Below, in pieces: positions 3 through 18,731 of a DNA stretch of 19,431 bases (position 1 is the stretch's first letter; every line of letters starts with the position of its first letter). Made by a program: the position numbers and the translations under genes. This DNA is from Gemmatimonadota bacterium (GTDB taxonomy: Bacteria; Latescibacterota; UBA2968; UBA8231). The notes below the pieces were generated by a model, which was not told the origin of the DNA, ran no database searches, and saw only the letters and a program-made list of their open reading frames with translations. The DNA is taken from assembly GCA_028875335.1 (NCBI GenBank), contig JAPPEF010000317.1:1-19431 (forward strand). Reading direction: 5' to 3'.

Positions 3-1646
3 GGACAGGAGACAGTCGACGGTGGCTATCTGGAAATCCATGGATCAACAGAAGGTCAGCTCGCCATCACGGCGGGGGACGACGTCGAAGAGCGCATCTG
101 CTGGGGCGACGTGCTCAAAGAAAAAAAGGTCGCTCAAGGGAAAGTGCGCATTGAGGTCGTCGCACCGTCCGGCAAGCAGTGGGTTCACGTGCGGGTCGAG
201 GACGCGGATACCGGCCAGCCCGTGGGAACCCGCGTCCACTTCCGCTCTGAGCACGGAGCCTATCTGGCACCGCACGGCCACCAAGCTGACGTCAATGTGG
301 CGTGGTTCGAGGACATGGGCGGCGACTGCAAGACCGGGGGCGTGCCCTACGCGTACATCGACGGCACCTGCCAGATCGACTTGCCCATTGGCCCGGTGTA
401 TGCCGAGGTCGTGCGAGGCTTTGAGTACCAGCCGCTGCGCCAGCAGGTTGAGATCAAGCCTGGGCAGAACGCGCTGACCCTTAAGGTTAAACGCGCCTTT
501 GACATGAAACAGCGCGGGTACTATTCGGGGGATACCCACGTGCATTTTCTTTCCTCCCAGTCGTCGCACCTAGAGGCCGAAGGTGAGGACCTCAACGTGG
601 TGCATCTGTTGGCCAGCCAGTGGGGCCGGCTATTTACCTCGTGGGAGGAGTTTACCGGCGGCTTGGCACCGACTAGCAGCGACAATCACTTGGTTTGGGT
701 CAGCCAGGAGAACAGACAGCACGTGCTTGGGCACATCAGCTTGCTCGGCCTCAAGGATCTGGTCGCGCCGATGTGTACCGGCGGGGCCAATGAGGATTGG
801 GTCGGCGGCTCGGTGGATGCGCTGATGGCCGATTGGGCCGAGGAGTGCAAAAAACAGGGCGGGCTGGTCATTATGCCGCACATGCCATTGCCCGACTTTG
901 AGAACGCGGCCAACATCGTCTTGGGCCACGCAGACGCCGGTGAGATGTGCTGGATTTGGGAGGGCGAGCAGATCAGTTCAGCCGAGTTGGGCTACTACCG
1001 CTGGCTCAACGTGGGCCAGAAGCTGCCGATTGTCGGCGGTACCGACAAGATGTCCAACGGCCGCATTTTGGGCGGCTCGCGCACGTATGCCAAGCTGCGC
1101 GAGGGCGAGGAGTTTACCTTTGACAATTGGTGCCAAGCTGTGCGCCGCGGTCAGACGTTTGCCAGCACGGGCGCGATGATCGATCTGAAGGTCGAGGGGC
1201 GGGAGATGGGCGAGGAAATCCACCTGCCCGGCAACGGCGGTACGGTCGAGGTGGTGGCGACCGCGGAAAGCGTCTGGCCGCTTACCGGGTTGGAGCTTAT
1301 TTGCAATGGCGAGTCCGTTGCGCGTGAAACCGCCGCGTCCGGTTCCCAGCAGATCGAACTGAAGTTCAAGCTCAAGGCCAATCGTTCCTGCTGGGTCGCA
1401 GCCCGCTGCTGGGGGCCGCACTACACGGACGCCGGGCCGGTGATGGCTCATTCCTCGCCGGTCTATATCGACGTGGGGCGGCGCTGCGTGTTTGCGCCGG
1501 CCGAGGGCAATTATCTGCTGACGCACATGGAGGGTGGCATCGCTTGGGCCGAAAGGATTGGCGTCTTCCGCGACGAGGGGATCCGCCAGCGGCTGATCGG
1601 CCTGTTTAACGAGGCTCGGGGCGAGCTGCTCCGGCGCATGCAGTAA
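3..1646 (+). CDS. CehA/McbA-family metallohydrolase (PHP-fold), 5' end outside window
   Basis: The frame is open from base 3 to the TAA at 1644-1646, giving 547 residues with no stop. The GTG at 111 lies mid-domain, so the real start is upstream of the window. The N-terminal part (about residues 45-170, counted from base 3) is a beta-rich region of the kind that precedes the catalytic domain in this family. The PHP-like metallohydrolase domain starts at a G-D-T-H-V-H-F motif; H179 and H181 are the expected first metal ligands. Further likely metal-site elements are M-P-H-M-P and G-G-T-D-K. The C-terminal part (about 430-547) looks like a beta-sandwich followed by a helical tail. CehA is known for carbaryl ester hydrolysis, but most members have unknown substrates, so the reaction cannot be named here. 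The next gene follows after 189 bases that contain a palindromic repeat. Confidence 0.82.
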   Translation, partial: GQETVDGGYLEIHGSTEGQLAITAGDDVEERICWGDVLKEKKVAQGKVRIEVVAPSGKQWVHVRVEDADTGQPVGTRVHFRSEHGAYLAPHGHQADVNVAWFEDMGGDCKTGGVPYAYIDGTCQIDLPIGPVYAEVVRGFEYQPLRQQVEIKPGQNALTLKVKRAFDMKQRGYYSGDTHVHFLSSQSSHLEAEGEDLNVVHLLASQWGRLFTSWEEFTGGLAPTSSDNHLVWVSQENRQHVLGHISLLGLKDLVAPMCTGGANEDWVGGSVDALMADWAEECKKQGGLVIMPHMPLPDFENAANIVLGHADAGEMCWIWEGEQISSAELGYYRWLNVGQKLPIVGGTDKMSNGRILGGSRTYAKLREGEEFTFDNWCQAVRRGQTFASTGAMIDLKVEGREMGEEIHLPGNGGTVEVVATAESVWPLTGLELICNGESVARETAASGSQQIELKFKLKANRSCWVAARCWGPHYTDAGPVMAHSSPVYIDVGRRCVFAPAEGNYLLTHMEGGIAWAERIGVFRDEGIRQRLIGLFNEARGELLRRMQ

Positions 1647-1787: not shown

Positions 1788-1823
1788 TCAATCCCTATGC
1801 GTACTCTCCACTCACTACTAACT

Positions 1824-1827
1824 GAGG
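1824..1827 (+). promoter_or_regulatory. Ribosome binding site deciding the dioxygenase start
   Basis: GAGG lies 8 bases before the ATG at 1836. The earlier in-frame ATG at 1797 has no comparable site and would add 13 residues (M-R-T-L-H-S...) that do not belong to the family's N-terminus. The 1836 start is therefore preferred. Confidence 0.65.
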
Positions 1828-1835
1828 CGAATCCC

Positions 1836-2720
1836 ATGCTTAACCAAGAACAAATCGACGAATTCCACCGCAACGGCTTTCTCAATGGCGGGCGGGTGCT
1901 CTCCGACGAGGAGATCGGCGAATTGAGCGACGCGCTCGACGAGATTTTGACCAAAGGCCCGGACGGCTTTGCCCCCGGCGAGGCGCAGCCGGTGTCCTTC
2001 CGCGACCTAGCCGGCGGGGGCGGCGTCAGCGAGCATCCAGTGTGGCAGATCGTCAATATCTGGGAAGCTGCGCCCGCTTGGGAGCGGCTGATTTACCACC
2101 CGGCTGTGGTGCGGGGGATCAGCCAGCTCACCGGCCATGCCGACCTGCAGGTCTGGCACGACCAGATCCAGTACAAACCCGCGCGCTACGGCGGCTCGAC
2201 CCACTGGCACCAGGACGCGCCCCTGTGGCCGATCATCAAGCCGATGACGCCGGTATCGGCGTGGATTCCCTTGGACGACGCGACCGAGGACAACGGCTGC
2301 ATGTGGATGGTGCCCGGCAGCCACAAGTGGGGCAACCAGATCGAGTTTTTGCGCACGCAGGGCAATTTGTCGCTGCTGGAAAATTTCAAGGACTTACAGG
2401 GCTTTACCCCGCCAGCCGACGCCGAGGTCCGCGAGGTGGTAGCGCGGCCGTGTCCGGTGATGCGCGGGGAGGTCTCCTTCCACCACTCGCTGACTTGGCA
2501 CGGCTCGCCCTTTAATCAGTCGCCGCGGCCCCGGCGCGCCATTGCCATCCACTACATGACCGGCGCAGCACACTTCGACCAAAGCGGCGAGCACCTGATG
2601 AAGCAGTTCGTCGATTTGCCCGACAATGCGCCCATGGCCGAGGCCGGCCCGCACTTTCCGGTGGTGTGCCGCAATGGGGAGCCGGTGGGGGTGCCGGAGC
2701 GGTTGCGGGTGACGAGCTAA
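1836..2720 (+). CDS. Phytanoyl-CoA dioxygenase (PhyH) family protein
   Basis: A 294-residue protein, of normal length for the family. It belongs to the Fe(II)/2-oxoglutarate-dependent oxygenases, which hydroxylate a substrate while decarboxylating 2-oxoglutarate. The N-terminus (L-N-Q-E-Q-I-D-E-F-H-R-N-G-F) is the typical PhyH opening. The iron-binding facial triad is visible: H125-x-D127 in T-H-W-H-Q-D-A, and the distal H222 in T-W-H-G-S. R233 or R234 in P-R-R-A-I-A-I-H-Y is the likely 2-oxoglutarate carboxylate binder. The D-N-G-C-M-W-M-V-P-G-S-H segment between them is also characteristic. No signal peptide is seen, so it is probably cytoplasmic. The substrate cannot be read from the sequence. 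The start at 1836 is chosen because of a GAGG site 8 bases upstream. Its stop lies one base from the stop of the convergent CreD-like gene. Confidence 0.9.
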   Translation: MLNQEQIDEFHRNGFLNGGRVLSDEEIGELSDALDEILTKGPDGFAPGEAQPVSFRDLAGGGGVSEHPVWQIVNIWEAAPAWERLIYHPAVVRGISQLTGHADLQVWHDQIQYKPARYGGSTHWHQDAPLWPIIKPMTPVSAWIPLDDATEDNGCMWMVPGSHKWGNQIEFLRTQGNLSLLENFKDLQGFTPPADAEVREVVARPCPVMRGEVSFHHSLTWHGSPFNQSPRPRRAIAIHYMTGAAHFDQSGEHLMKQFVDLPDNAPMAEAGPHFPVVCRNGEPVGVPERLRVTS

Positions 2721-2721
2721 G

Positions 2722-3963
2722 CTACTCGGACTTTTGAGGAGTGGCTGGCGACTGGGCAAAAACGGTCGACCAGTCCATCCGACCAGTAAGCTGCATGGCG
2801 ACAAAAAGGGTGGCGATGCACAGGACGGTAATGGCCAAGCCGGTATAGCCGACGAAGAAGAAAGTGTAGGAGAAGAGCACCAAGTAAATGAATTGGGCCA
2901 ACCCCACCTCCACCAAGGCCAGCCGCAGGCCGACTACGAGCCGCATGTAGGAGATGACCAAGAAAACGGATACTGCCGCAGCCACCAAAAAGGCGTAGTG
3001 GATGAGCAAGTGGTCGGCTAGGTAAGCCAACAGCAGGTGGAAGCTGAAAAAGGCCGCGCCGATGAAGAAGTAATTCATCGGATGGATGTCGATGCCTTTG
3101 ACCGTGGCAAAGACGAAGAGAACAAAGAAAAAGAGAAAGAGGGATATGGGCGCGGCTTGGGTCACGTCTTGTACCCAGGGGCCTGGATTGAGGCGGGCAG
3201 GCATGACCATGCCGAGGGAGGCCCCGGTGAGCAGGCGGTCGTACTGCCAAGTGAGACGCCAGCCATTGGCGGTGCGCTCCTTTTGAGTGGGGGCTAGGCT
3301 TTCGCGCGGGAAGTCGATGGCGTCGAAATCAGTGTGCATGACCAACTCGAAATCGGAAACCTGCTCGACGTGGTCGCCGAAGCGGTACCACCATTCTTCT
3401 AAACCCTGCGATTGATAGGAAAGACGGATCTGGCGACTCTGACCCGGCGCGAAGTGCAACGGCTGTTGCAAGTGCCCTTCCGCCAGTGGCAGCGGGGCGA
3501 TGGGTTGACCGTCGATGGACAGGGCGAAATCATCGTACACAGCTTGGGAAGTAGGTAGGGCTAGATCGAAGGTCAGGTCGAGGGGGTGGTCGGTCGCGTT
3601 GGTCGCGGTATAGATGGCGTCCAGTGCCACTTGGTAAGTGGCGTACCACAGCAAGCCCTTGCGGCGGTGTTCGAGGTGTAAATCGACTTGTAGGCGGCTG
3701 GCTTCTAGGGGCAGGAGATGCCGCCGCTCTTTGGAGTGCTCTGTCTCTTGGCCGTCGGGGGTCTGTGTGACGACGGTTTCCTCGGTGGTCCAGTACAGGA
3801 GTGGGGCGCGTTGGGACTGGGAAGTGCCCCACAATTGGCCCACCGCGGCTTTGAGCTTGGTGTCTTGCTGGTGGGTGCGGTGGGAGACGACCTGTGCCAA
3901 GATAATCCAAGCGACACTCGTGCAGGCGAAGATAAAGCCGATAGCGGCGATGCGGTATAGCAT
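2722..3963 (-). CDS. CreD-like inner-membrane protein
   Basis: A 413-residue protein. One membrane helix at about residues 4-25 is followed by a large extracytoplasmic beta-rich region (about 30-275). A C-terminal bundle of about five helices begins with I-S-L-F-L-F-F-F-V-L-F. The C-terminal part carries the CreD family signature: I-H-P-M-N-Y at 293-298, A-D-H-L-L-I-H-Y-A-F-L-V-A, and a final T-G-R-M-D-W ending at W398. In E. coli, creD belongs to the CreBC regulon and affects envelope and colicin E2 tolerance, but its biochemistry is unknown. No creB or creC homologue is in this window. I chose the ATG at 3961-3963, which has AAGGAGG five bases upstream; an in-frame TTG at 3976-3978 would put that ribosome site inside the coding region. 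It is transcribed divergently from the giant fusion gene and converges on the dioxygenase gene with a 1-base gap. Confidence 0.8.
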   Translation of the reverse strand: MLYRIAAIGFIFACTSVAWIILAQVVSHRTHQQDTKLKAAVGQLWGTSQSQRAPLLYWTTEETVVTQTPDGQETEHSKERRHLLPLEASRLQVDLHLEHRRKGLLWYATYQVALDAIYTATNATDHPLDLTFDLALPTSQAVYDDFALSIDGQPIAPLPLAEGHLQQPLHFAPGQSRQIRLSYQSQGLEEWWYRFGDHVEQVSDFELVMHTDFDAIDFPRESLAPTQKERTANGWRLTWQYDRLLTGASLGMVMPARLNPGPWVQDVTQAAPISLFLFFFVLFVFATVKGIDIHPMNYFFIGAAFFSFHLLLAYLADHLLIHYAFLVAAAVSVFLVISYMRLVVGLRLALVEVGLAQFIYLVLFSYTFFFVGYTGLAITVLCIATLFVAMQLTGRMDWSTVFAQSPATPQKSE

Positions 3964-3967
3964 GAAG

Positions 3968-3975
3968 CCCTCCTT
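3968..3975 (-). promoter_or_regulatory. Strong Shine-Dalgarno of the CreD-like gene
   Basis: Read on the minus strand this is AAGGAGGG, with about five bases to the ATG at 3961-3963. It decides between that ATG and the upstream TTG at 3976-3978. Confidence 0.7.
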
Positions 3976-4058
3976 CAACTGCGTTTGAACGTCTCGCCGA
4001 TAGCTAAAGTTCCATTTACAGAAGTAAAGTAATCGTCTCAGGGGCGGTCCTCCAGCGA
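3976..4058. promoter_or_regulatory. Divergent spacer, presumed to hold two outward promoters
   Basis: This short spacer between the CreD-like gene (-) and the giant fusion gene (+) must contain both promoters unless the genes are read from elsewhere. It contains a small perfect inverted repeat, TTTAC-AGAA-GTAAA (4015-4028), which could be an operator half-site pair. I cannot assign -35/-10 boxes with confidence. Confidence 0.35.
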
Positions 4059-7000
4059 GTGCCGAAAGAAGCTGCGTCCGTCGGTTTGCTTGCTAGACGG
4101 AATGCTTGGGGCCGATATTGGGACGCTATGGTTGCGCTGATTATCGCCTTTTTGGTCGCCTTTGCCATCGGCCCGGTAGCGGCTTCTACAGGGCCGCGGG
4201 CTGTTGTGGAGCACTTGTCCTCACTGGAATCGCGGGTGGCTGGCTATCCGGGGAGTGTCCAGGCGGCGGAGTATATAGAAGGGCAGTTGCAGGCGTTGGG
4301 GTTGGCGACGCGACGCGACTCCTTTGCAGTAGTGGTGCCGATGGACCGGGGTGGGCGGTTGGAGTGGGAAGATGAGTCGGTGCCTCTGTACGCGGTGTGG
4401 CCGAATGGGGTGCGGACTTCGACCGTGCCGCCGGAAGGGTTGCGGGCGTCGGCTATTTGGGGCGGCGATGGGGATTGGGGCGATTTCAATGGGCAGGAGG
4501 TGGCTGGGCGGGTGGTGGTGCTGGACTTTGCCAGTAGGGACGCTTGGCTGAAGGCCGCGTCGTTGGGGGCTCGGGCGGTGGTGTTTGTGGCTGCGGATTC
4601 GGCTACTACGCAGCAGGCGCAGGGCAAGTACGTGCGGGCACCGTTGGATGTGCCGCGATTTTGGGTGGAGGGGGCCGCTGGAGAGCGGCTGCGGCGACGG
4701 TTGGTGGATGGAAAGGTGGAGGTGGGGCTGTGGGGGCGGATGGATTGGCAGGAGCGGACGGCGTACAACGTGTGGGCGGTGGTGCCGGGGAAGGATGCGG
4801 GGACCGCGCAGAACGAGACGGTGCTCATCCATGCGTATTACGACGCGCCGTCGGTGATACCTGCGCGAGCACCGGGGGCAGAGGCGGCGGTGAGTGTGGC
4901 GGCTCTGTTGGAGGTGGCCGCTCGCTTGCGAGAGAACCCGCCGGCGCACACGGTGGTACTCGCTGCGCTGAGTGCCCACTTTCAGGGGCGGCAGGGCATG
5001 GTCGCCTTTCTCGACAGGCACGCCCGCCGCCAAGAGCACTACGCGGCCCGGCTGGCCGAGCCGCTGAATATTGACCTGTTCATTGGTCTTGATTTGTCCA
5101 GCCACGGCGAGCGGGTGGTGCTGTGGAACAACACGGACAGCTACGCACTCAAGCGGTTTTTCGTGCCCTTTGGCCGTCGCTTTACCGAGTACGCGGAGGT
5201 ACTGGGCAGCGCCGAGGCGTTGGCCAACGGCATCAGCCCAATTCGGGGAATGGATTGGGACAGTTACATGCCTGGGGGTTTGGTCGCCGATGGGGAGTTG
5301 GCGCTCGAGGCGGGATTCCCGTCGCTGACGCTGGCCACGGTAGGCGATGCCCGCTTTGCGCTAGATTTGCCGCGGGACACGGGCGAGAGCGTGGCGTGGG
5401 ATAATGTGGAAGGACAGGCGGCGTTGGTGGCCGATCTGCTGGCCCATGCGTTGGCCGATACGGCGCTATTGGTGGGGCGGGAGCGGCTCGAGGCGGCGTT
5501 GAAAGATCGGCTGCGGGATTTGCGGGTCAAAGCGCGGACGTTTCCCCGGCGCAGTCAGGTGCCAGACCGGCCGGTGGTCGGGGCACTGGTGGCGGTGCAG
5601 GTGGAGGAGGAAGAGCGCAAAGGGGTGCGCGACACGCGCTACTTTCTCGCGGATGCTGCTGGGCTGGCGCGGATTCCCGGACTGGTACAGGGGACGTATC
5701 CGCTGACTGTGGCGGCACTGGACGCCGAGCGGGGGACGCTTACTCACGTAGTGGACTTGAGTAAGCGCGCGCAAGCGCACCACGGGAGACCGAGGGCGGA
5801 TGGTCGCTTGGCCAAGAATGTGCGCTGGCCGCAAAACGAGCAAATCGCCGTGCTATTTCCCGGAGCGGGGCGGCCCTTGTACGGCTTGGTCGAGCCGCGC
5901 CTTTTGCGTGCGTTGAACGAAGTCAAGGTGCTGTCGGCGGCCGGGAGCGAGCCGGGCCAGTACGGGTACGCCTTGGGTAAAAGCAGTATTGGCTCGGTGG
6001 GGGTGATCTACGGACCGGCCGATGCCGCAGCCGACGACCGCGTCAAAGTGATTTTGGACGGCCAGTTTTTGCTGCTCAACAGCGAGGGCAGCCAAAGCGA
6101 GGACGAGGCGCGGGGCCAGGGGTTTTTGCTGACCGAGGAGGGATTTGGGGGCGCGACGCTGCAGGCAGCGCGGGACTTGTGGAACTTGGATGCGGCGCGG
6201 TTGGGGATGCTCAAGGAGCACGGCATTGAAAATCAGCGGTTGACGCGCCTCCACGAGCAGACGGCGGTGGCTATAGCCGAGGCGGAAGCAGCGGCCGCAC
6301 AGCTAAAGTGGGATGAGTACATCGCGTGGAGCCGCAAGGCGCTGGGCTTGGAGACGCGAGCCTACCCAGAGGTCTTGGCAACGCTCAACGACGTCCTCGA
6401 AGGGGTGATCTTCTTTATGGCGCTGTTGTTGCCGGCGGCCTTTTTCGGGGAGCGGCTGTTGTTTGCCGCGGCCGATATTCGCCGGCAGCTCGCTGGCTTT
6501 GGGCTGTTATTGCTGGCGATTTGGCTGATTTTGGCGCAGGTGCATCCAGCCTTTGAGTTGGCCGAGCCATTGGTGGTGTTATTGGCGTTTGCAATCATGG
6601 CAATGGCTGCCTTCGTGCTCTTTATGCTGGTAGGCCGGTTCAATCGCGTCATGGCCCAGCACCAGAGCCAGCAGATGCGAGTCCACGCCCAGGACCTGAG
6701 CCGCTTGAGCGCGAGTTATGCGGCCTTCATGCTGGGGATTTCCAATATGCGGCGGCGGCCTCTGCGCACCGGCCTGACGCTGGCGACGCTGACGCTTTTG
6801 ACGTTTACCCTGCTCTCCTTTACCTCGTTTGAACAGCAAATCCGCTACGCGAGTTTTCGGTTGCCACACGCTGGAGCGTACCCCGGAATCCTCATCCGCG
6901 ACCGCGGCTGGGAGCGCCTGACGCCGGAGGCGCTCGATTACGCCGAGTCGCACTTTGGCGGCAGCGGCTGGATGGGGCGGCGCGGCTGGTACGCGGCCGA

Positions 7001-10000
7001 AGGCGGCAAGGGAAGCTGGATCGCGGTGACGGCGGCAGGGAACGCAGTGCGGGCCACGGGCTTGTTGGGCCTGACGCCGGAGGAGGCGCAGATCACCGAG
7101 GTGGATAAGAGCTTGGTGGCGGGGTCGTTTTTTGCCGCGGATGACGAGGCCACCTGCATCCTGTCGTTGGACATGGCCGAGGCGTTGGGCGTTGGGGTTG
7201 GGGACCAGGTCGAGGTGTTCGGGCGTGCGCTGGCGGTGCGCGGGATTGCCGACTCAGAGCGGTTGGGTGAACTGCGCGATCTCGATGACGAGAGTCTGAT
7301 GCCGGCCGATTTTGTCCTGTCGAGCGCAGAGGTGCTCCAGTTGGGAGCGGAGCAGGACGTGGATATTGCCGGCGAGGAGGATCTACGCGAACTGCGGCCC
7401 TTCATCCACCTAAAGCCGCACCACGTGGTCCTCGTGCCCTATCAAACGCTGGCCGAGGCCGGGGGCAGCTTGCGCTCGGTGGCCGTGCGCTTTTCGGGGG
7501 AGACCGATGGGCAGGCGCTGGTCGAGGACTATTTGACGCGGGTGGCGGTCACCTTGTTTGTCGGCTCGCCGGCAGGGGAGGTGATGGCCCTCAGCTCGGT
7601 GGGGCTGACGGCTGTGCAGGGGCTGGGGGCGCTGGCGATCCCTGCGCTGGTGGCCGCGCTCATTGTGCTCAACGCGATGCTGGGGGCGGTGTACGAACGT
7701 CTGCGCGAGATCGGCATCTATTCCTCGGTGGGGCTGGCACCCTTGCACATTGCGCTGCTGTTTGTGGCCGAAGCCTGCGTCTATGCGGTGTTGGGAACGA
7801 CGTTGGGTTACTTGCTGGGTCAGGGGTTGGGGAAGGTGCTGTTGGCGCTGGGGCTGTTGCAGGGCATTACCTTGAACTACTCGTCGCTGGCGGCGATTGG
7901 GGCCGCGCTGGCGGTGATGGGGGTGGTGTTGCTATCGACGATCTATCCGGCGCGGGTGGCGGCGCGGCAGGCGGTGCCGGACGTGGTGCGGCGCTGGCGG
8001 CCGGACCCGCCCAGCGGCGACGAGTGGCTGTTTGAGTTTCCCTTCATGCTCGGCGAGGGAGAAGTCGAGGGGGTGTGCGGCTTTTTGGCCAATTACTTTG
8101 GGGCCTTTGGCCGGGCGACGCTGGGGGATTTTTACGTCGAGGATATGCAAGTTACGCAGGCCGATGGCTATCGCCTCTCGTTTGCGCTGTGGCTGGCCCC
8201 GTTTGACTTGGGGGTGAGCCAAGAGGTGGTCGTGGAGTTTGTGTCGGTTGGGGAGCGCTCGCGGGCGATGGAAGTCCGGTTGCGTCGGCTAAGCGGCGAG
8301 CGCCACTACTGGCAGCGGCTCAACCTGCGGCTGGTAGAGGCTCTGCGCAAGCAGATGTTGATTTGGTACGCGCTCCGGGAGGCTGAGCGCGTCCAGCACG
8401 TGGAGTCGGCGCGGACGCTGGCGGCCGAGCAGGCCGAGCAGCGCGTAGCGGAACAGTCGGCAGCGGAACAGCCGGCGTCTTTTACTTGGCGGGGATTTGC
8501 GGTGGGGGCGCTGTTGGCCTTGTGCATCGGCGTGGGGGCACCCTACGCGGTGATTATGCTGCAAGGGTCGTTCATGGCGCTCAACAGCTCGTCGCCTGGG
8601 GCGATCTTTCTGTTTTTCGTCTTGGTGGTGGTGGTTAATACTCTGTTACGGGTGCTGGGCCGCGGTCTCGCCTTGGGGCGGGCCGATTTGGTGCTCATTT
8701 ACGCGATGATGCTGTTGGCGTCGGCCGTGCCAACGCAGGCGTTTGTCGGTTATCTGATTCCGATCATCAGTGGGCTGTACTACTACGCGACCCCGGAAAA
8801 CAACTGGGGCGAGGTTTTCTTTCCGCACGTGACGCCGTGGCTGGTGCCGCAGGACCGGCAGGCAATTGTCGATTTGCACGAGGGATTGTCGCCTGGGGAG
8901 GGCATTCCGTGGGCGGCTTGGAGCGAGACCCTGAGCTATTGGTACGTCTTCTTTTTAGTGCTGAGCTTTATGATGCTCTGCATGAGTTCCATTCTGCATC
9001 GGCAGTGGTCGCAGCACGAGCGGCTGGCCTATCCCATGGTGCAACTGCCGCTCAAGATGGTGGAGGAGGACCAGCCGGGGTCTAAGCTAGCGCCGCTTTT
9101 TAAGCAGCGGCTGTTGTGGATCGGCTTTGCAGTGCCGTTCGTCCTGCTGTCGCTCAAGGGGCTGCACTACTACTTTCCGGCGGTGCCGACGCCAATTCAG
9201 TCGGCTGGGCAACTGCCGTGGATCGGCAGTAAGCTGAATTCGCACTGGGTGTACGCGTGGATCGGCTTTTTCTATTTGGTCAACCTAAACATTTCCTTTT
9301 CGATTTGGTTTTTCTACCTCTTCAACAAGGCGCAAGAGGGGATTTTCGCCTCGTTGGGCATTGCCAGTACCGAAAAGCTCAGTCTCTACTCCTACTCGCA
9401 GACTGCGGACCTGACGCACGAGGTGATGGGGGCCTGTTTGATTTTTGTTGGCTACACCTTGTGGATGGGGCGGCGGCACTTGGGGGCCGTGTGGCGCAAG
9501 GCTTGGCGCGGCGATTCGACGGTGGATGATGCGGGGGAGATGCTTTCCTATCGGGTGGCGGTCTTTGGCTTTTTAGTCAGCCTGATTTTTGTGGGCGTGT
9601 GGCTGTGGGCGTCCGGGGTGCCGCTGGCGATTTTGCCGCTGTTTTTACTGATGTGCTTGATCTTTTACGTGTTTGTCACGCGGGCGGTGGCCACGGCCGG
9701 GTTGGCGACGGCGCGCTCGCCGATGGTGGCGGCGTTTTTCGTCATCTCCGCGGTGGGCGCACCGGTGATTGGGGCCAAGGGGCTGACGGCCCTGACCTTT
9801 ACGTACGTCTGGCAGTCCGAGATGAGGCTCTTTCCGATGATTGCCGCGGCCAATTCGCTCAAGCTAGCCGAGGCGGTGGTTGGCTCTAAAAGGCGGCTGT
9901 TTTGGGGAATGGCGCTGGCGTTAGTGGTGAGTTTGGCTGGGGCGACGTGGATCATTTTTCAAGTGTGTTACGAGCACGGTGGGATCAATCTGCATTCGTT

Positions 10001-10394
10001 CTTTATGACCCGTCAGGCCACCCGCACGTTTACCGACATGGCGCGGCCGATCGTCGATCCGCTACCAGCCGATATGCGCGGTTGGTTGTTTACCGGCATC
10101 GGCGGATTCTTTGAGGCCGTGCTGTTGTGGGGTCATCACCGGTTTTACTGGTGGCCGTTGCACCCATTGGGATTTATCGTCAGCGTCGGCTGGCTGGCTG
10201 GTCAGGTGTGGTTTTCCGTGTTCATCGCGTGGGCGCTCAAGCTGGGCATTGTCAAGTGGGGTGGGATGCCGCTCTACGAGCGGGCCAAGCCCTTTTTCCT
10301 AGGGTTGATCTTGGGCGAGGCGACCGCGGCCGGATTGTGGCTGTGCATCGATGGTGTGTTGGGCGAAACCGGGCATTTTCTGTCGTATATGTGA
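4059..10394 (+). CDS. Giant fusion: inactive M28-like domain + FtsX-type permease + DUF6785/DUF6784 membrane module
   Basis: A single uninterrupted frame of 2111 residues. A membrane helix (about 24-42) precedes an extracytoplasmic M28-peptidase-like domain (about 50-480) with a PA-like insert (about 140-235). In it the usual A-H-Y-D reads A-Y-Y-D (259-262), the G-A-x-D metal Asp is Ala276, the E-E pair is H307-F308, and the last His is D436. A small beta domain (about 501-575) follows. Three helices lie at about 783-860. An FtsX/MacB-type permease comes next, with its first helix at about 906-926, an extracytoplasmic domain, then three helices from about 1187; E-R-L-R-E-I-G-I (1213-1220) is the classic FtsX loop. 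A soluble domain (about 1313-1450) and an A/E/Q-rich linker lead into DUF6785 (from about 1475) and DUF6784, with W-W-P-L-H-P-L-G-F at 2031-2039, roughly 13 helices in all. The GTG start has only a weak GGGGCGG site; ATG 4128 is the alternative. No ABC ATPase is adjacent. Its role is unknown; transport or envelope signalling is inferred. Confidence 0.85.
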   Translation: MPKEAASVGLLARRNAWGRYWDAMVALIIAFLVAFAIGPVAASTGPRAVVEHLSSLESRVAGYPGSVQAAEYIEGQLQALGLATRRDSFAVVVPMDRGGRLEWEDESVPLYAVWPNGVRTSTVPPEGLRASAIWGGDGDWGDFNGQEVAGRVVVLDFASRDAWLKAASLGARAVVFVAADSATTQQAQGKYVRAPLDVPRFWVEGAAGERLRRRLVDGKVEVGLWGRMDWQERTAYNVWAVVPGKDAGTAQNETVLIHAYYDAPSVIPARAPGAEAAVSVAALLEVAARLRENPPAHTVVLAALSAHFQGRQGMVAFLDRHARRQEHYAARLAEPLNIDLFIGLDLSSHGERVVLWNNTDSYALKRFFVPFGRRFTEYAEVLGSAEALANGISPIRGMDWDSYMPGGLVADGELALEAGFPSLTLATVGDARFALDLPRDTGESVAWDNVEGQAALVADLLAHALADTALLVGRERLEAALKDRLRDLRVKARTFPRRSQVPDRPVVGALVAVQVEEEERKGVRDTRYFLADAAGLARIPGLVQGTYPLTVAALDAERGTLTHVVDLSKRAQAHHGRPRADGRLAKNVRWPQNEQIAVLFPGAGRPLYGLVEPRLLRALNEVKVLSAAGSEPGQYGYALGKSSIGSVGVIYGPADAAADDRVKVILDGQFLLLNSEGSQSEDEARGQGFLLTEEGFGGATLQAARDLWNLDAARLGMLKEHGIENQRLTRLHEQTAVAIAEAEAAAAQLKWDEYIAWSRKALGLETRAYPEVLATLNDVLEGVIFFMALLLPAAFFGERLLFAAADIRRQLAGFGLLLLAIWLILAQVHPAFELAEPLVVLLAFAIMAMAAFVLFMLVGRFNRVMAQHQSQQMRVHAQDLSRLSASYAAFMLGISNMRRRPLRTGLTLATLTLLTFTLLSFTSFEQQIRYASFRLPHAGAYPGILIRDRGWERLTPEALDYAESHFGGSGWMGRRGWYAAEGGKGSWIAVTAAGNAVRATGLLGLTPEEAQITEVDKSLVAGSFFAADDEATCILSLDMAEALGVGVGDQVEVFGRALAVRGIADSERLGELRDLDDESLMPADFVLSSAEVLQLGAEQDVDIAGEEDLRELRPFIHLKPHHVVLVPYQTLAEAGGSLRSVAVRFSGETDGQALVEDYLTRVAVTLFVGSPAGEVMALSSVGLTAVQGLGALAIPALVAALIVLNAMLGAVYERLREIGIYSSVGLAPLHIALLFVAEACVYAVLGTTLGYLLGQGLGKVLLALGLLQGITLNYSSLAAIGAALAVMGVVLLSTIYPARVAARQAVPDVVRRWRPDPPSGDEWLFEFPFMLGEGEVEGVCGFLANYFGAFGRATLGDFYVEDMQVTQADGYRLSFALWLAPFDLGVSQEVVVEFVSVGERSRAMEVRLRRLSGERHYWQRLNLRLVEALRKQMLIWYALREAERVQHVESARTLAAEQAEQRVAEQSAAEQPASFTWRGFAVGALLALCIGVGAPYAVIMLQGSFMALNSSSPGAIFLFFVLVVVVNTLLRVLGRGLALGRADLVLIYAMMLLASAVPTQAFVGYLIPIISGLYYYATPENNWGEVFFPHVTPWLVPQDRQAIVDLHEGLSPGEGIPWAAWSETLSYWYVFFLVLSFMMLCMSSILHRQWSQHERLAYPMVQLPLKMVEEDQPGSKLAPLFKQRLLWIGFAVPFVLLSLKGLHYYFPAVPTPIQSAGQLPWIGSKLNSHWVYAWIGFFYLVNLNISFSIWFFYLFNKAQEGIFASLGIASTEKLSLYSYSQTADLTHEVMGACLIFVGYTLWMGRRHLGAVWRKAWRGDSTVDDAGEMLSYRVAVFGFLVSLIFVGVWLWASGVPLAILPLFLLMCLIFYVFVTRAVATAGLATARSPMVAAFFVISAVGAPVIGAKGLTALTFTYVWQSEMRLFPMIAAANSLKLAEAVVGSKRRLFWGMALALVVSLAGATWIIFQVCYEHGGINLHSFFMTRQATRTFTDMARPIVDPLPADMRGWLFTGIGGFFEAVLLWGHHRFYWWPLHPLGFIVSVGWLAGQVWFSVFIAWALKLGIVKWGGMPLYERAKPFFLGLILGEATAAGLWLCIDGVLGETGHFLSYM

Positions 10395-10484: not shown

Positions 10485-13157
10485 ATGCGGAGCATGGATG
10501 CGGACTTGGCCGGTCTAATGCGCCTATTGGGAACGGCGGCCCTGAGCCTCGTCCTCGTCAGTTCGCTCGTCGTCGGGCAGGCAGCGTGGTCCGAGGAGGC
10601 TGAGACGGAGGAAGAGGACGAGGAGGGGGCCTATACCGAGGACATCTATCTGATGGAAGAAGCCATCGTCGTGGGGTCGCGCCACGCGCCGCGTTCAGAA
10701 AAGGAGTCGGCCGCGCCCGTAGATGTGCTGAATGCCGACCAACTGCGCACGCAAGCTGCGGTCGATATGGACGACATGCTGCGCACCCTGGCTCCATCGT
10801 ACAATATCCAGCGGCACGGCATTGACGACGAAGCGACCTTGGTGCGCCCGGCCACGCTGCGGGGCCTGCCGCCGGACAACCTGCTGGTGCTGGTCAACGG
10901 CAAGCGCCGCCATCGCTCCGGCGTAATCGCACTGCTGGGCAGTTCGCTCAATACGGGATCGCAAGGGCCGGATTTGAGCGTGATTCCAGCTATTGCTTTG
11001 AGGCAAATGGAACTGCTGCGCGACGGCGCGGCGGCCCAGTACGGATCCGACGCCATAGCCGGGGTGCTGAACCTGCGATTGCGCGAAGCCTCCGAAGGGG
11101 TGCTAATGGAAACACGAGTAGGCCAGTACTTCGAGGGCGACGGTAGTTTGTATCAAGTCGCTACCAATGTCGGCCTGCCGCTTAGCGAGGACGGTTTTTT
11201 CAATGTCAGCGTCGAGTACCGCCAAAACGATCCTACCATCCGCAGCGGTCAACGCGCCAATGCTGCGACGCTGAGAGAGAGAGGCTATCCCGTCAAAGAG
11301 CCGGCGCAGATTTGGGGCAGTCCCGACCTCGACGGCGTGTGGAATACCTTCTTCAACAGTGGAGTTGATCTTGGCAATGGATCTGAAGCCTATAGTTTTG
11401 GCGGCTGGGCCAAGCGCCGCGCCGAAGGCGGCTTTTTCTTCCGCGCTCCGGGCACTTCCTCGGCGCGCAGCAGCGTATTTCGCATCGGCGATCAGCGGGC
11501 CGTAGCCGATCTCGACCCGGACGACGACGTTGATCCCGCGAACTTGGAAGTGCCTTCTTTGGACTCCAGCTTCGACGAGACCCAAGCTTTCGTCGATGAG
11601 TACCAGGGCGATCTCTTTCTGTTCAACGAGCGCTTCCCGGGTGGTTTTACGCCGCGCTTTGGAGCGGATATCCGCGATGTGAGCTTGGTGGCTGGTCTGC
11701 GCAGTGCCCGCTCCGGTGGCCTCAAGTGGGACGCCAGCGTCAGCGCCGCCCGCAGCAATATCGAATTTTTCATTTTCAATACCATCAACGCCTCGCTGGG
11801 GCCGGATACGCCGACGTCGTTCCGTCCGCGCGACTACATCCAGACCGAAGTCGCGGCCAACTTCGACTTCTCGTACGCGATGGAGGTGGGTGGTTTGGCC
11901 TCGCCGCTCGGCCTCGCTTGGGGCGCTGAATGGCGCCAAGAGACGTTCGAGTCCGTGGCTGGCGATGAAGCCTCCTACGTGGTGGGCCCCTATGCGCCCC
12001 AGGGCTTTAGCAGCGGTTCCAACGGCTATCAGGGGCTGCACCCAAGTAACGCCGGCAAGTGGGATCGCCCCAACTATGCCTTGTACGTGGATTTGCAGAC
12101 AGACGTAGTGCCGCAGCTCCAGCTAGGCACGGCCGTGCGCTACGAGGACTTCTACGCCGATTTTGGCAATACCCTCAACGGCAAGCTCTCGGCCTTGTTG
12201 CGAGCTAGCGACCGGGTCAACCTGCGCTCGACGGTCAGCACTGGGTTCCGCGCTCCGTCGCCCGGCCAGGCCAATCTCCGCGCCGTGACCACTGGCTTTT
12301 CCGGCACCGGTGGTCTGACCGAGCAGGGGCAGGTGCCGCCCACCCATCCCATAGCCGCGGCCTTGGGCGGAGAGGAACTGACTGAGGAGAAGTCCGTGGG
12401 ATTTTCCGTCGGCACCGCCATGGAACTCACTGACGATTTCGATCTGACCCTCGACTACTTCGCCATTGACATCGAGGACCGCATCGCCCTGACCGGGAAT
12501 ATCAAGATCACCGACCAAATCGCCCAGATCATCCGGGACGATGAATCCCTCCAGGGCGTCAGCGTCCTCCAAGAGGTCAAATTCTTCTCCAATGACTTTG
12601 ATACCCGCACCCAAGGTATTGACTTGGTGCTGTCGTGGACGCGGACGTGGGCCCCCCAATCTCTGTCCCACATTGATGTCGCCTACAACTGGACCCGGAC
12701 TACTCTTGAGGACTTTTCGCAAGAGCGGACAAAAGAAGAATTTCTGGGCAAACCCCTGGACGAACCGATCAAATTCAAACTGATGACGCCCCGACGTGAG
12801 GTGGAACTGGGGGAAATGAACCCCGAGCACCGCTTGGTGGTCACCGGCAGTCACCAAATGGGCGCTTGGAGCGGCATGCTGCGGCCCAGCTACTTCAGCG
12901 CTTGGAAAGCCTGCCGCTTCCAAGACAACAGTTGCGGTGATCTCGACGCCTTTGACGGAGGCGTCATTGTCGATGCAGAAGTCGGTTATGCCTTTGGCGA
13001 TAGCTATCAGTTGAGCGTGGGGGCGCAGAATATTTTAGACTCAGTGCCCGAAGCTCCGCCCGAAGAGACCTCAGGTCAGGGCAATCTGCGCCCGGAGAGC
13101 ACGCCTTGGGATTACAACGGTGCTTTCTGGTACACGCGTTTATTTGTGGAATTTTAG
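10485..13157 (+). CDS. TonB-dependent outer-membrane receptor
   Basis: An 890-residue protein, within the usual size range for TonB-dependent receptors, which import substrates across the outer membrane using TonB/ExbBD energy. An N-terminal signal peptide (hydrophobic core about 14-31, likely cut near A34) is followed by a very acidic stretch and a TonB-box-like segment E-E-A-I-V-V-G-S-R (58-66). The plug domain (about 70-205) carries L-R-G-L-P-P-D-N-L-L-V-L-V-N-G-K-R-R-H-R-S and ends with L-R-D-G-A-A-A-Q-Y-G-S-D-A-I-A-G-V, both hallmarks of the family. The rest is a beta-barrel, with G-A-Q-N-I-L-D near the end and a C-terminal aromatic F, as expected for outer-membrane insertion. A C-x6-C pair near the C-terminus may form a disulphide in an outer loop. 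No SusD-like partner is present, so the ligand is unknown. A strong GGGAGGA site supports the start. It lies 90 bases downstream of the giant fusion gene, on the same strand. Confidence 0.93.
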   Translation: MRSMDADLAGLMRLLGTAALSLVLVSSLVVGQAAWSEEAETEEEDEEGAYTEDIYLMEEAIVVGSRHAPRSEKESAAPVDVLNADQLRTQAAVDMDDMLRTLAPSYNIQRHGIDDEATLVRPATLRGLPPDNLLVLVNGKRRHRSGVIALLGSSLNTGSQGPDLSVIPAIALRQMELLRDGAAAQYGSDAIAGVLNLRLREASEGVLMETRVGQYFEGDGSLYQVATNVGLPLSEDGFFNVSVEYRQNDPTIRSGQRANAATLRERGYPVKEPAQIWGSPDLDGVWNTFFNSGVDLGNGSEAYSFGGWAKRRAEGGFFFRAPGTSSARSSVFRIGDQRAVADLDPDDDVDPANLEVPSLDSSFDETQAFVDEYQGDLFLFNERFPGGFTPRFGADIRDVSLVAGLRSARSGGLKWDASVSAARSNIEFFIFNTINASLGPDTPTSFRPRDYIQTEVAANFDFSYAMEVGGLASPLGLAWGAEWRQETFESVAGDEASYVVGPYAPQGFSSGSNGYQGLHPSNAGKWDRPNYALYVDLQTDVVPQLQLGTAVRYEDFYADFGNTLNGKLSALLRASDRVNLRSTVSTGFRAPSPGQANLRAVTTGFSGTGGLTEQGQVPPTHPIAAALGGEELTEEKSVGFSVGTAMELTDDFDLTLDYFAIDIEDRIALTGNIKITDQIAQIIRDDESLQGVSVLQEVKFFSNDFDTRTQGIDLVLSWTRTWAPQSLSHIDVAYNWTRTTLEDFSQERTKEEFLGKPLDEPIKFKLMTPRREVELGEMNPEHRLVVTGSHQMGAWSGMLRPSYFSAWKACRFQDNSCGDLDAFDGGVIVDAEVGYAFGDSYQLSVGAQNILDSVPEAPPEETSGQGNLRPESTPWDYNGAFWYTRLFVEF

Positions 13158-13230: not shown

Positions 13231-14685
13231 TCAACAGCGCACCACATCCTCGACGTCTGCGACTGGCAGGGTGTCTTCGTGCCGGGGCTGCACCGTTTGT
13301 CCCCACGCCGTCAGAAGGTGCATATCCCGCGTCAGTTCAGTACAGCGCTGGGTCACCTGCTCGGGGTTCCAATCGGCGTAGAGTTGGTCGAGCAGCTCTT
13401 GCCGCAGGGCGGCGTAGGCACCAGCACTGCCCAAGTCGTTCCATTCCTCTGGGTCGTCCGCCAGATTGAACAATGCCGGTGGGGTGTCGTCGTGGTATTT
13501 GTAGAGTTTCCACGATCCCTGCCGGATCATGCGCGAAGGAGGATCGCCGCGCGAGGGCCCCAATTCGCTGAAGGTGGTATCGGGGCGGGCATTATCTGCG
13601 TGTCCCTGTAGTTCGCGCCACAGAGAATGGCCGTCGGCTGCGGGCAGGGACTCGCCGCCGGCCACTTCTACGGCGGTGGGTGCCCAATCGAGCAAATTGC
13701 ACAGCACCGGGTTTTCCACGCCTGCCGGTATCACGCCGGGCAAACGGGCGATGAGGGGGACGCCGACCGAGCCTTCGTAGTAGTTGCTCTTCCACCAGCA
13801 GCCGTGCTCGCCGGCCATCTCGCCGTGGTCGCTGGAGTAGATCACCAACGTATTGTCGCGCAAGCCGGTCTCGTCGAGTTTGTCGAGGAGCTGGCCGACT
13901 TTGCGGTCGAAGTATTCGCACAGACCAAAATAGGCCGCCCGCGCCACGCGGATGCGCTCTTTGGGCAGGGGTTCGTCAATGAGACGGCGCTTTTTGAAAT
14001 TGGCCACGGCCGCTGGCTCTCCGGTCGGGTCGGGTTGCGGCACATCGACTCGGTCGTAGTAGTAATCGTATAGATCCTTGGGGGCGAAGAATGGGCAGTG
14101 CGGCAGTACAAAGCCCGCTACTGCGGCAAAGGGCCGGTCGTGCGTTTGCGCTTTTTCCTCCAAATAGGCGCAAGCCGCCTCGGCGACTCGGTCGTCAAAG
14201 GCTTGGTACGTAGTGCGGCCGTACCCGGCTATTTCGACGCATTCGCGGGTCTGGCCCGAGGTGCTGGAGGGAATGCTCTTGAACAGTGGCCCGCCCTGTT
14301 GGGCCGCACCCGGATGCCGGGCGGTGTGCTCGCCGATAGGCCGGCGCTCAAAACCGTGGCGCTGGTCGGGCCCGACAAAGTGCATGCGGCCAAGCAGCGC
14401 GGTCTCGTATCCAGCCGCACCCACGGCATGGGCCCAAGTCGGCAGCGCCGAGTTGAGGATGTGGTCGTTGCCCCAGACTTGGTTGGCGCTAGGCCGCCGC
14501 CCGGTCATAAAGGCCATGCGTGCTGGCGCGCACAAAGGCGAGGGGGTGTACGCATTGGCAAAGCGCATGCCCTCGCTGGCCAAGCGGTCGAGGTGCGGGG
14601 TGCGCACCAGCGGGTCGCCGTAGCAGCCGAGGTGGAATTTGCTGTGCTGGTCGGAGAGGATGAAGAGGATATTGGGTCGGTCCAT
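13231..14685 (-). CDS. Cys-type sulfatase (formylglycine-dependent, BetC-like layout)
   Basis: A 484-residue member of the alkaline-phosphatase-fold sulfatases, which hydrolyse sulphate esters using a formylglycine made from cysteine. It opens with P-N-I-L-F-I-L-S-D-Q-H (D12 in the metal site). The activation motif is C52-A-P-A-R56, followed by T-G-R. The second metal and substrate segment S-S-D286-H287-G-E-M lies in a context (F-D-R-K-V-G-Q-L-L-D... and Y-E-G-S-V-G-V-P-L-I-A) that resembles choline-sulfatase-type proteins. The true substrate cannot be assigned. No clear signal peptide is visible, so it is either cytoplasmic or exported by an unrecognised route. An in-frame stop lies four codons upstream of the chosen ATG, so this is the earliest possible start, although it lacks a good ribosome site. 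The small gene 74 bases upstream on the same strand may share its transcript. Confidence 0.92.
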   Translation of the reverse strand: MDRPNILFILSDQHSKFHLGCYGDPLVRTPHLDRLASEGMRFANAYTPSPLCAPARMAFMTGRRPSANQVWGNDHILNSALPTWAHAVGAAGYETALLGRMHFVGPDQRHGFERRPIGEHTARHPGAAQQGGPLFKSIPSSTSGQTRECVEIAGYGRTTYQAFDDRVAEAACAYLEEKAQTHDRPFAAVAGFVLPHCPFFAPKDLYDYYYDRVDVPQPDPTGEPAAVANFKKRRLIDEPLPKERIRVARAAYFGLCEYFDRKVGQLLDKLDETGLRDNTLVIYSSDHGEMAGEHGCWWKSNYYEGSVGVPLIARLPGVIPAGVENPVLCNLLDWAPTAVEVAGGESLPAADGHSLWRELQGHADNARPDTTFSELGPSRGDPPSRMIRQGSWKLYKYHDDTPPALFNLADDPEEWNDLGSAGAYAALRQELLDQLYADWNPEQVTQRCTELTRDMHLLTAWGQTVQPRHEDTLPVADVEDVVRC

Positions 14686-17088: not shown

Positions 17089-18731
17089 TGGGCGCGTTGA
17101 TATGGTGCGCGGTCGGGTGCCTCCTCGGGGCAGCTAGTGGGTGGAGCGAGTCGCTCGTGGTGCAATTCGTCGATCAGGCGGCGACTGTCGGCCTGACGCA
17201 GCCCAATGTCTCGGGCACCGACCAAAGCTACATAGTCGAGGGGATGATGGGCGGTGCCGCCTTTTTCGATTACGATCGCGATGGCGATGTGGATTTGTAC
17301 GTGACCAACGGCTCTTCCTTTGCGGGCTTTGCTGCGGGTGAGCATCCGGCCAATCAATTCTACCGCAACGACGGCGGTCGCTTTGCCGATGTGACGGTCG
17401 TCGCTGGCGTGGGGGATACGAGCTGGTCAATGGGATGCGCTGCGGCCGATTACGACAACGACGGCCATACGGACCTCTACGTTACCAACTTTGGCCGCAA
17501 TACCTTATATCGCAATCTCAGTACGGGTCGCTTTGCCGATGTGACGGTTGCTGCTGGCGTGGGTGATATGGGGTGGGGCACCGGTGCGAGTTTTGGGGAT
17601 TACGACCGCGATGGCGACGTGGATTTGTACGTGGCCAACTACGTGGACTTCTCCCTCGGTTACGAATCTCCAATACCCTGCCTGTGGAAGAACGTGAAGG
17701 TGTACTGCGGGCCGGTGGGTCTGCTACCAGCTGCGGATGTGTTTTACCGCAATAATGGCGACGGGACGTTCTCCGAGTGGACGAAACAGGCGGGTCTGCA
17801 GGGCGAAAAGTTCTACGGCATGAGCGCGCTGTTTGGCGACTACGACGACGACGGGTGGCCCGACCTGATCGTGGCCAATGACTCTACGCCCAACCTGCTT
17901 TTTCGCAATCTCCAGGACGGTCGCTTCGCCGAGGAGGCGCTCATGGCTGGGGTGGCGTACAGCGGGGAAGGGGTGACGCAAGGATGTATGGGGGCCGCGT
18001 GGGGCGATTACGACAACGACGGCCTATTCGACCTATTCGTCACTAATTTCGCCGACGAGTACAACGCGCTGTACAGGAACGAAGGTGGGGGCTTTTTTGC
18101 CGATGTGTCTTTTGTCGCGGGGATCGGGACGGCACCGGCTGAATTGGTCTCGTGGGGCACGGGTTTTTTCGACTACGACAACGACGGCGACCGCGATCTT
18201 TTCGTGGCCAATGGCCATACCTACCCGCAGGCCGACTTGCCGAGGGTCAACTCCAGCTACGAACAAATCAACTCGCTGTTTGAGAATAGGGATGGACGGC
18301 TGGTGGAGGTGTCGGCCGCAGCAGGTCCGGGCTTTGCCTTGCGCCGCGTCAGCCGCGGGACCAGTTTCGCCGACTACGATGGCGATGGGGACACCGATTT
18401 ATTTATTCTCAATCTCAACGGCCCGCCAGCCCTGTTGCGCAACGATGGCAACCACGACAATCACTACCTGCTGGTGCGCACGGTGGGGACGAAGAGCAAC
18501 CGCGACGGGATTGGGGCACGGGTGATCATTAGTGCCGGTGGGCAGAGTCAGCACGCCGAGGTGCAAAGCGGGGGAAGCTATTTGTCGCACAACGATCTGC
18601 GGCTGCACTTTGGTTTGGGACAGGCCGAGCGCGTGGACCGGCTCGAAGTGCGCTGGCCCAGCGGGGCAGTTCAGGTGCTGAGCGACATTGCTGCCGATCA
18701 GGTCCTGACCGTCGTCGAGCCGCGTCAATAG
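17088..18731 (+). CDS. CRTAC1-family secreted protein (FG-GAP repeats + ASPIC/UnbV domain), copy 2
   Basis: A 547-residue paralogue of the preceding gene. Its GTG start shares the G of the upstream TAG stop (TAGTG), a layout typical of translational coupling. The N-terminus (G-A-L-I-W-C-A-V-G-C-L-L-G-A-A-S-G) is a short signal peptide. Seven repeats follow in the same order as in copy 1, with motifs such as F-F-D-Y-D-R-D-G-D-V-D-L-Y-V and G-D-Y-D-D-D-G-W-P-D-L-I-V. The same two-cysteine insertion (I-P-C-L-W ... Y-C-G-P) lies between repeats 3 and 4. The ASPIC/UnbV domain (about 460-545) has N-R-D-G-I-G-A-R-V, G-G-S-Y-L-S-H and H-F-G-L-G. Within the gene, 17268-17303 and 17598-17633 match at 34 of 36 bases, and a 23-base stretch at 17376-17398 recurs exactly at 17526-17548. 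Conserved length and order point to gene duplication. The biological role of these propeller proteins in bacteria is unknown. Confidence 0.9.
   Translation: MGALIWCAVGCLLGAASGWSESLVVQFVDQAATVGLTQPNVSGTDQSYIVEGMMGGAAFFDYDRDGDVDLYVTNGSSFAGFAAGEHPANQFYRNDGGRFADVTVVAGVGDTSWSMGCAAADYDNDGHTDLYVTNFGRNTLYRNLSTGRFADVTVAAGVGDMGWGTGASFGDYDRDGDVDLYVANYVDFSLGYESPIPCLWKNVKVYCGPVGLLPAADVFYRNNGDGTFSEWTKQAGLQGEKFYGMSALFGDYDDDGWPDLIVANDSTPNLLFRNLQDGRFAEEALMAGVAYSGEGVTQGCMGAAWGDYDNDGLFDLFVTNFADEYNALYRNEGGGFFADVSFVAGIGTAPAELVSWGTGFFDYDNDGDRDLFVANGHTYPQADLPRVNSSYEQINSLFENRDGRLVEVSAAAGPGFALRRVSRGTSFADYDGDGDTDLFILNLNGPPALLRNDGNHDNHYLLVRTVGTKSNRDGIGARVIISAGGQSQHAEVQSGGSYLSHNDLRLHFGLGQAERVDRLEVRWPSGAVQVLSDIAADQVLTVVEPRQ

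Follow-up and report, generated by a model that had tools for sequence, protein, structure and literature searches.

OPT transporters are generally regarded as carriers that act on their own, and M28-fold ectodomains without peptidase function are known from nicalin and nicastrin, which belong to eukaryotic membrane complexes with roles in the translocon and in gamma-secretase. Barley Yellow Stripe 1, an OPT/YSL protein, is a proton-coupled, elevator-like symporter according to an excerpt of PMC9691689. Permeases of the FtsX/MacB type are usually treated as parts of ATPase-driven machines such as MacB (excerpt of PMC5985334), and an excerpt of PMC12646458 presents YbbAP-TesA of Escherichia coli as a type VII permease combined with a periplasmic hydrolase fold. 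Here, we describe a gene that joins M28-like, FtsX/MacB-like and OPT-like parts in one chain. It lies on contig JAPPEF010000317.1 of a Gemmatimonadota bacterium (phylum Latescibacterota in GTDB), whose 19,431 analysed nucleotides are called the window, and its product consists of an M28-like domain with an FtsX/MacB-type permease (M28-FtsX half) and of a DUF6785/DUF6784 module of predicted OPT fold (OPT half). The fused protein is best explained as the one-chain form of two inner-membrane proteins whose gene pair is conserved in Latescibacterota and their relatives.

The protein joins a permease unit of a known kind to a newly recognized family of predicted OPT fold. Its OPT half resembles Yellow Stripe 1 (7wst/7wsr) in predicted fold but shares only 9-14% identity with it. 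Unlike the OPT/YSL carriers, it is either fused to a permease unit or has one encoded next to it, and its family numbers 17 to 50 matches in each of seven genomes. With the type VII permeases MacB, LolC/E, FtsX, YtrF, HrtB and YbbP the permease core shares the FtsX Pfam match, the predicted core fold and a loop at the coupling position, while it is set apart by three extra helices, by the pseudo-M28 and putative START-like domains, by the OPT half and by the fact that no ATPase gene was found nearby. In sequence, the N-terminal domain is closest to the M28 aminopeptidases YwaD (6hc6) and 2ek8; its catalytic Glu pair, however, is lost, and an invariant His307 occupies the position of the catalytic Glu. 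Nicalin and nicastrin show M28 kinship as well, but the domain described here is bacterial and joined to a permease. As for YbbAP-TesA, TesA is a catalytically active enzyme encoded on its own and the complex runs on ATP; no counterpart of either was found here. Among the titles and beginnings of abstracts listed from the open-licence PMC literature, the M28-FtsX-OPT layout was not found.

The fusion and its unfused gene pair

As the original prediction had stated, the gene is a single uninterrupted frame of 2111 codons; it begins with GTG. The Pfam domains follow each other in the order Peptidase_M28 (residues 237-365, E 1e-5, or 1.1e-6 in a scan limited to the N-terminal part), MacB_PCD (992-1088, E 1.9e-5, under its cut-off), FtsX (1193-1304, E 3.8e-12), DUF6785 (1476-1974, E 3.3e-124) and DUF6784 (2009-2104, E 1e-27), so that the predicted M28-like ectodomain, FtsX/MacB-type permease and DUF6785/DUF6784 module were all recovered. 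The A/E/Q-rich linker is visible by eye upstream of residue 1475. Since the relatives P0002-P0011 comprise only 2086-2094 residues and the fused frame of locus L001 (2088 residues) starts at the equivalent of window codon 24, the true start is probably the ATG at 4128 (codon 24), which would leave the first 23 codons untranslated.

A search of 5.8 billion proteins revealed 183 relatives, 120 of which were listed and underlie the following counts. Both halves were essentially complete in 28 proteins, 48-95% identical to the window protein; some DUF6785 sequence was present in 35, and eight were partial. Another 82 were full-length M28-FtsX proteins of 1430-1516 residues without DUF6785, which stop 1-20 residues past the aligned part. 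Because M28 and FtsX share one gene in all 82 of these unfused relatives, the fusion has two parts, an M28-FtsX gene and an OPT gene, and not three. The earlier claim that three normally separate pieces had been joined thus holds for the OPT half, but not for the boundary between M28 and FtsX.

The recurrence called for in the original prediction was also seen at the level of genomes. Eleven fused loci were found on contigs titled Latescibacteria/Latescibacterota, Gemmatimonadetes/Gemmatimonadota or, in one case, 'uncultured bacterium', and two chromosome-level records (L001 and L006) show the same junction. Among the matches listed in a survey of 64 genomes of the phylum of genome G001 (scoring limited to six candidates per genome, best matches listed), the fusion occurred on one contig in at least seven genomes, and in two further ones (G048 and G049) both of its parts were located at contig ends. 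In a FastTree phylogeny of the M28-FtsX half (74 rows, 31 of them fused), which sampled 30 of the 82 unfused proteins together with 13 paralogues and came with long-branch warnings, the fused rows formed one clade with a support of 99, requiring one change. One old fusion event is therefore the simplest reading of this tree. In the tree of the OPT module, the fused modules stood on one side of a branch with a support of only 78. The fusion is real, recurrent and old.

Where the halves are unfused, they are mostly encoded side by side, which agrees with the earlier proposal that the parts belong together. In genomes G001 to G003, a DUF6785 gene within about 1.6 kb was counted as a neighbour, a contig-end fragment of G003 being left aside. 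G001 possesses seven M28-FtsX genes, one of them the fusion, and all six unfused copies have a DUF6785 neighbour. The same applies to six of six unfused copies in G002, where one neighbour is a shortened frame 1.5 kb away and another lies across a 1.5 kb gap, and to four of five in G003; both genomes contain one fusion in addition. At the exceptional locus of G003, DUF6785 is not present beside the M28-FtsX gene, which is adjoined by a gene termed c2. Loci from further genomes, chosen by hand, showed a DUF6785 neighbour in 10 of 12 cases; L128 was left unscored, its called open reading frame (ORF) conflicting with the homologous frame. In total, 26 of 29 unfused loci have this neighbour. At several loci the genes overlap by four bases, as is typical of coupled translation. 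Moreover, the distance matrices of the seven M28-FtsX genes of G001 and of their DUF6785 partners agreed (Mantel r 0.81; 40 of 5040 relabellings as high). The linkage of the two genes is well supported and, since they are neighbours in most related genomes, suggests that the two halves work together.

The product of c2 has a length of about 655-1075 residues and matches no Pfam family apart from PDZ domains in a long form; for the short form neither a significant Pfam or NCBIfam match nor a PDB match was obtained. Comparison of the c2 and DUF6785 profiles gave 94.6% with eight c2 rows and 92.7% with 16 rows, for an alignment that spans just 194-227 columns on the N-terminal side, which makes c2 a probable distant homologue of DUF6785. 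In G001, each of the five c2 genes (two pieces of one counted as one) has an M28-FtsX gene at a distance of no more than about 7 kb. G002 also has five, four of them near M28-FtsX and one about 18 kb off, besides one spurious weak match. At the further loci, c2 adjoins M28-FtsX in 11 of 12 cases, the remaining locus being situated at a contig end. By tblastn, c2 matched neither the window nor any of seven fused loci, and it does not occur near paralogue b in G001 or G002 either. Long-form c2 genes with a big extra stretch near the C-terminus were observed in L062 (4486-7713, minus strand) and L127 (12771-15989, plus strand); in L062, PDZ domains were found in that stretch.

Domains of the two halves

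The N-terminal domain is related in sequence to true M28 aminopeptidases, since PF04389 was matched over its cut-off and the domain profile found 2ek8 with an E of 4.9e-17 and YwaD with 1.4e-13. It also matched Nicalin (7tm3, E 2.6e-6) and Nicastrin (E 0.12). To assess the active site, its positions were placed from alignments to true M28 enzymes in 138 rows (the window, 25 locus frames and 112 proteins, many of them closely related), with roles that we take to be those of the M28 family. The catalytic Glu was present in none of the 138 rows, all of which have His307 instead, and the adjacent ligand Glu was likewise absent throughout, being replaced by Phe, His or Tyr. At the bridging position there was no Asp and in one row a Glu; Glu275, one residue ahead of it and next to an alignment gap, was found in 132 rows and could take over its place. 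The first His was kept in seven rows, Asp345 in 137 and Asp262 in all 138, whereas the position aligned with the terminal His contained no His in any row and Asp436 in 98. The catalytic Glu of M28 is thus missing and its two-metal ligand set is not intact, and the ectodomain is probably not a peptidase of known mechanism. The strongly kept residual site may have been repurposed for the binding of a metal or another ligand.

The permease core comprises one helix, a periplasmic domain and three helices, and is predicted to adopt an FtsX/MacB-type fold. Between the core and the linker, a region without any Pfam or NCBIfam match (residues 1320-1439) was tentatively assigned a START/Bet v 1/Aha1-like helix-grip fold on the basis of its structure model; it would lie on the cytosolic side. 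This domain and three extra helices ahead of the core had been missed in the earlier layout, in which the lack of a neighbouring ATPase had not been raised either. Among the 150 candidates scored out of 204, G001 has at least 91 matches to PF00005, the nearest of which are about 12 kb from paralogue d, about 14 kb from paralogue e and about 22 kb from the fused gene, the others being still farther from their M28-FtsX genes; none was closer than about 12 kb to any of the seven copies. Four ABC ATPases of G001 used as tblastn queries at 1e-5 gave no match in 41 stretches (764 kb), namely 33 of the unfused set, including three fusion fragments, and eight with fused genes, while both control loci containing an FtsX-type permease and its ATPase were detected. 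The queries came from four of five ATPase places, L156 being left aside since none of its ORFs passed the motif filter. Within these stretches, no dedicated ABC ATPase was found in the same chain or operon. The permease core seems to have no ATPase gene of its own, which is the main mechanistic puzzle of the system.

For the OPT half, a model of high predicted quality shows an OPT fold that spans the whole transporter, so that the likeness to OPT proposed earlier can now be based on the predicted fold. Pfam OPT (PF03169) was not among the matches at E up to 10, though the HMMER filters drop most weak matches, and the DUF6785 family profile had no sequence match in the PDB. For these two reasons we do not file the module as a sequence member of the OPT family, although it probably has the OPT fold and works like an OPT protein. 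DUF6785 gave 50, 44 and 17 matches in G001, G002 and G003, respectively, most of them outside the M28-FtsX loci, and none in 14 control genomes. This expansion looks like substrate diversification. In the open-licence PMC papers searched, neither DUF6785 nor DUF6784 is mentioned.

Table 1. Features of the fused gene, its neighbours in the window and stand-alone OPT modules of other loci
Feature	Residues	Nucleotides	Strand	Basis
Whole fused frame		4059-10394	+	ORF, lengths of relatives
N-terminal hydrophobic helix, signal peptide or anchor	23-41	4125-4181	+	Hydropathy scan
Pseudo-M28 aminopeptidase domain (M28 core 237-366)	40-480	4176-5498	+	Pfam, profile matches, active-site census
PA-domain match inside the pseudo-M28 domain, weak	about 141-211		+	Pfam, below cut-off
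Kept positions of the pseudo-M28 site	262, 275, 307, 345	4842-4844, 4881-4883, 4977-4979, 5091-5093		
Carboxypeptidase-regulatory-like stretch, weak	503-564	5565-5750	+	Pfam PF13620, E 0.0014, below cut-off
Three extra transmembrane helices before the permease core	779-856	6393-6626	+	Hydropathy; helices in predicted model
MacB/LolC/FtsX-type (type VII ABC) permease core	880-1310	6696-7988	+	
Loop at the position of the MacB major coupling helix	1211-1231	7689-7751	+	Alignments; MacB position from an excerpt of PMC5985334
Predicted START/Bet v 1/Aha1-like (helix-grip) domain, probably cytosolic	1320-1439	8016-8375	+	
Helix and A/E/Q-rich linker into the OPT half		8376-8480	+	Unfused relatives terminate within this stretch
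DUF6785+DUF6784, one complete transporter module of predicted OPT fold	1475-2111	8481-10391	+	
PhyH dioxygenase, window		1797-2720	+	
CreD-like membrane protein, window, divergent		2722-3978	-	
TonB-dependent receptor, window		10485-13157	+	
Sulfatase, window		13231-14685	-	
Two ASPIC/FG-GAP proteins, window		15232-17088 and 17016-18731	+	
Stand-alone OPT module, about 64% identical to the fused one, L112		8552-10501		
Same, L113		202-2151		
Same, L114		8675-10741		
Same, L115		8485-10434		

Gene neighbourhood

Downstream (3') of the fused gene, the ORF maps of L001, L006 and L010 diverge. In a comparison of 33 stretches containing stand-alone DUF6785 genes with 20 control stretches, no significant excess over the controls was seen for sulfatase, PhyH, enolase-type, Gfo/Idh and AKR genes. 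This comparison was dropped since its queries had been drawn from DUF6785 stretches, cassette stretches or the window and were therefore biased; a nominal signal of an FlgD_ig/CHU_C cluster (14/33 vs 1/20) was abandoned together with it, and a supposed 'TonB' group (10/33 vs 1/20) turned out to be mislabelled, given that two or more of the four proteins used as its queries have no Pfam match. The test was repeated with the genome positions of 43 stand-alone DUF6785 genes of G001 and 2000 circular shifts. TonB plug genes were not enriched (2/43 within 6 kb, shift mean 2.1), and FlgD_ig was weakly enriched (21/43 within 10 kb, a value reached by 95 of 2000 shifts; 150 of 269 candidates scored). 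A family of 912 residues was commoner than expected within 10 kb (14/43, reached by 1 of 2000 shifts), yet showed no enrichment within 6 kb (5/43, reached by 295 of 2000). The seven DUF6785 copies linked to M28-FtsX had no enriched neighbour. About 39 strong copies of the 912-residue family (e.g. L085, 1712-4450) occur in G001, and neither Pfam nor NCBIfam gave a match to it.

Neighbours were also recorded for two cassettes of M28-FtsX paralogues. The cassette of paralogue a (L062 and L074, with like ORFs in L068, L117 and L127) is followed by YbjN/CesT-like, PspA/IM30 and amine oxidase genes, as annotated with Pfam on L062, and L074 additionally contains a spermine-synthase-like gene and a DUF4178 gene. 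The YbjN/CesT-like, PspA/IM30 and other genes suggest that this cassette is linked to envelope stress. Paralogue f (L066, 12355-18948; like ORFs in L072 and L077) is preceded by a weakly SurA-like gene, by a gene for a protein of 870 residues without Pfam match and by one for an FlgD_ig/CHU_C protein.

Proposed mechanism and rival explanations

The best reading, which in our judgement falls just short of being probable, sees the system as an OPT-fold importer to which a receptor/permease unit is tethered. The periplasmic aminopeptidase fold, having lost its catalytic Glu pair, would most likely bind a ligand such as a peptide, a metal chelate or another small organic molecule. It would sit on the MacB/LolC-type core with its cytosolic-side START-like domain, and this half would deliver the ligand to the OPT half or gate it, whereupon the latter, acting as a secondary transporter like Yellow Stripe 1, would import the ligand with protons or another ion. 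The physical complex, its topology, the direction of import, the energy source and the binding of a ligand are inferred. The idea of the original prediction that conformational change would be passed through FtsX to the transporter is likewise hypothetical. A more far-reaching version is conceivable but doubtful. According to it, the complex would be a new transport system in which a type VII permease that has shed its ATPase serves an OPT-fold transporter as a passive, ligand-sensing lever; on the outside, the ligand would be bound at the repurposed aminopeptidase site, where Asp262 and His307 are invariant and Glu275 and Asp345 almost invariant, the START-like domain would read it inside, and c2, as a second OPT-like subunit, would complete the transporter in most cassettes.

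Several observations weigh against a receptor-fed importer. The fused module has its nearest OPT relatives in the stand-alone copies L090 and L099, and stand-alone modules of G053, G054, G055 and G057, about 64% identical to it (Table 1), nest inside the fused clade with moderate support (branches 85-91). On this tree three changes are needed, only one of which is forced by the starred branches, and the nested modules may be the result of a later natural split of the fusion. Because stand-alone copies are nearest to the fused modules or nested among them, the OPT half can do without the other half. Three of the 29 unfused loci (L075, L118 and L121) have no DUF6785 neighbour, and the gene order is variable, DUF6785 being upstream in some paralogues and downstream in others. 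The permease model is of medium quality (predicted template modelling score, pTM, 0.45), and a reliable substrate hint was not obtained from the neighbouring genes. Most or all rows retain Glu275, Asp345, Asp436 and His307, so that the pseudo-M28 domain may possess an altered metal site and, with it, some enzyme activity. Finally, the loop VYER.REIG...VGLAP.HI is conserved where MacB has its major coupling helix, which would be sensible if an ATPase acted in trans.

The main rival builds on this last point. It takes the protein for a type VII ABC machine with an ATPase gene at another site of the genome. Driven by ATP, the permease would perform work in the periplasm or, as has been proposed for YbbAP-TesA, draw hydrophobic molecules out of the membrane, while the pseudo-peptidase would serve as its receptor and the OPT-like part as either a second channel or a scaffold. 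The complete type VII core and the conserved loop speak for it, as does the putative START-like domain, which would suit hydrophobic ligands; YbbAP-TesA, as far as the excerpt of PMC12646458 goes, sets a precedent for coupling such a transporter with a periplasmic hydrolase. Nevertheless, given that no ATPase was revealed by the tblastn search of 41 stretches or within about 12 kb of the seven G001 copies (150 of 204 candidates scored), we consider this explanation unlikely. A scaffold for the assembly or quality control of membrane proteins, comparable to the nicalin complex, is clearly improbable. Its pseudo-M28 domain would dock partners and its OPT-like helices would shield or fold clients without any transport, which is in line with the Nicalin match and with the paralogue cassettes located beside a PspA/IM30 gene and a weakly SurA-like gene, but not with an OPT-fold model spanning a whole transporter or with the numerous DUF6785 copies outside M28-FtsX loci. 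Even less credit is given to a sensor in which pseudo-peptidase and permease perceive a ligand in the envelope and pass the signal on to the OPT-like part, much as permeases of the BceAB type sense antibiotics; no constant regulator was noticed among the ORF clusters, whose genes are only partly annotated. As the window stems from a metagenome-assembled genome and L128 contains a long frame in conflict with the homologous one, an assembly artefact or a chance read-through had to be considered too; this explanation, whose likelihood is practically nil, is already refuted by the recurrence of the same junction, flanked by homologous sequence in either direction, in 28 clustered proteins and on two chromosome-level records.

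A conserved gene pair, apparently fused on one occasion, in which OPT and FtsX/MacB folds are coupled without a neighbouring ATPase would be a new way to build a transporter. DUF6785 and DUF6784, Pfam families of unknown function, gain a likely fold and role and, with 50 matches in one genome of the phylum, may be a main transport route of the largely uncultured Latescibacterota.

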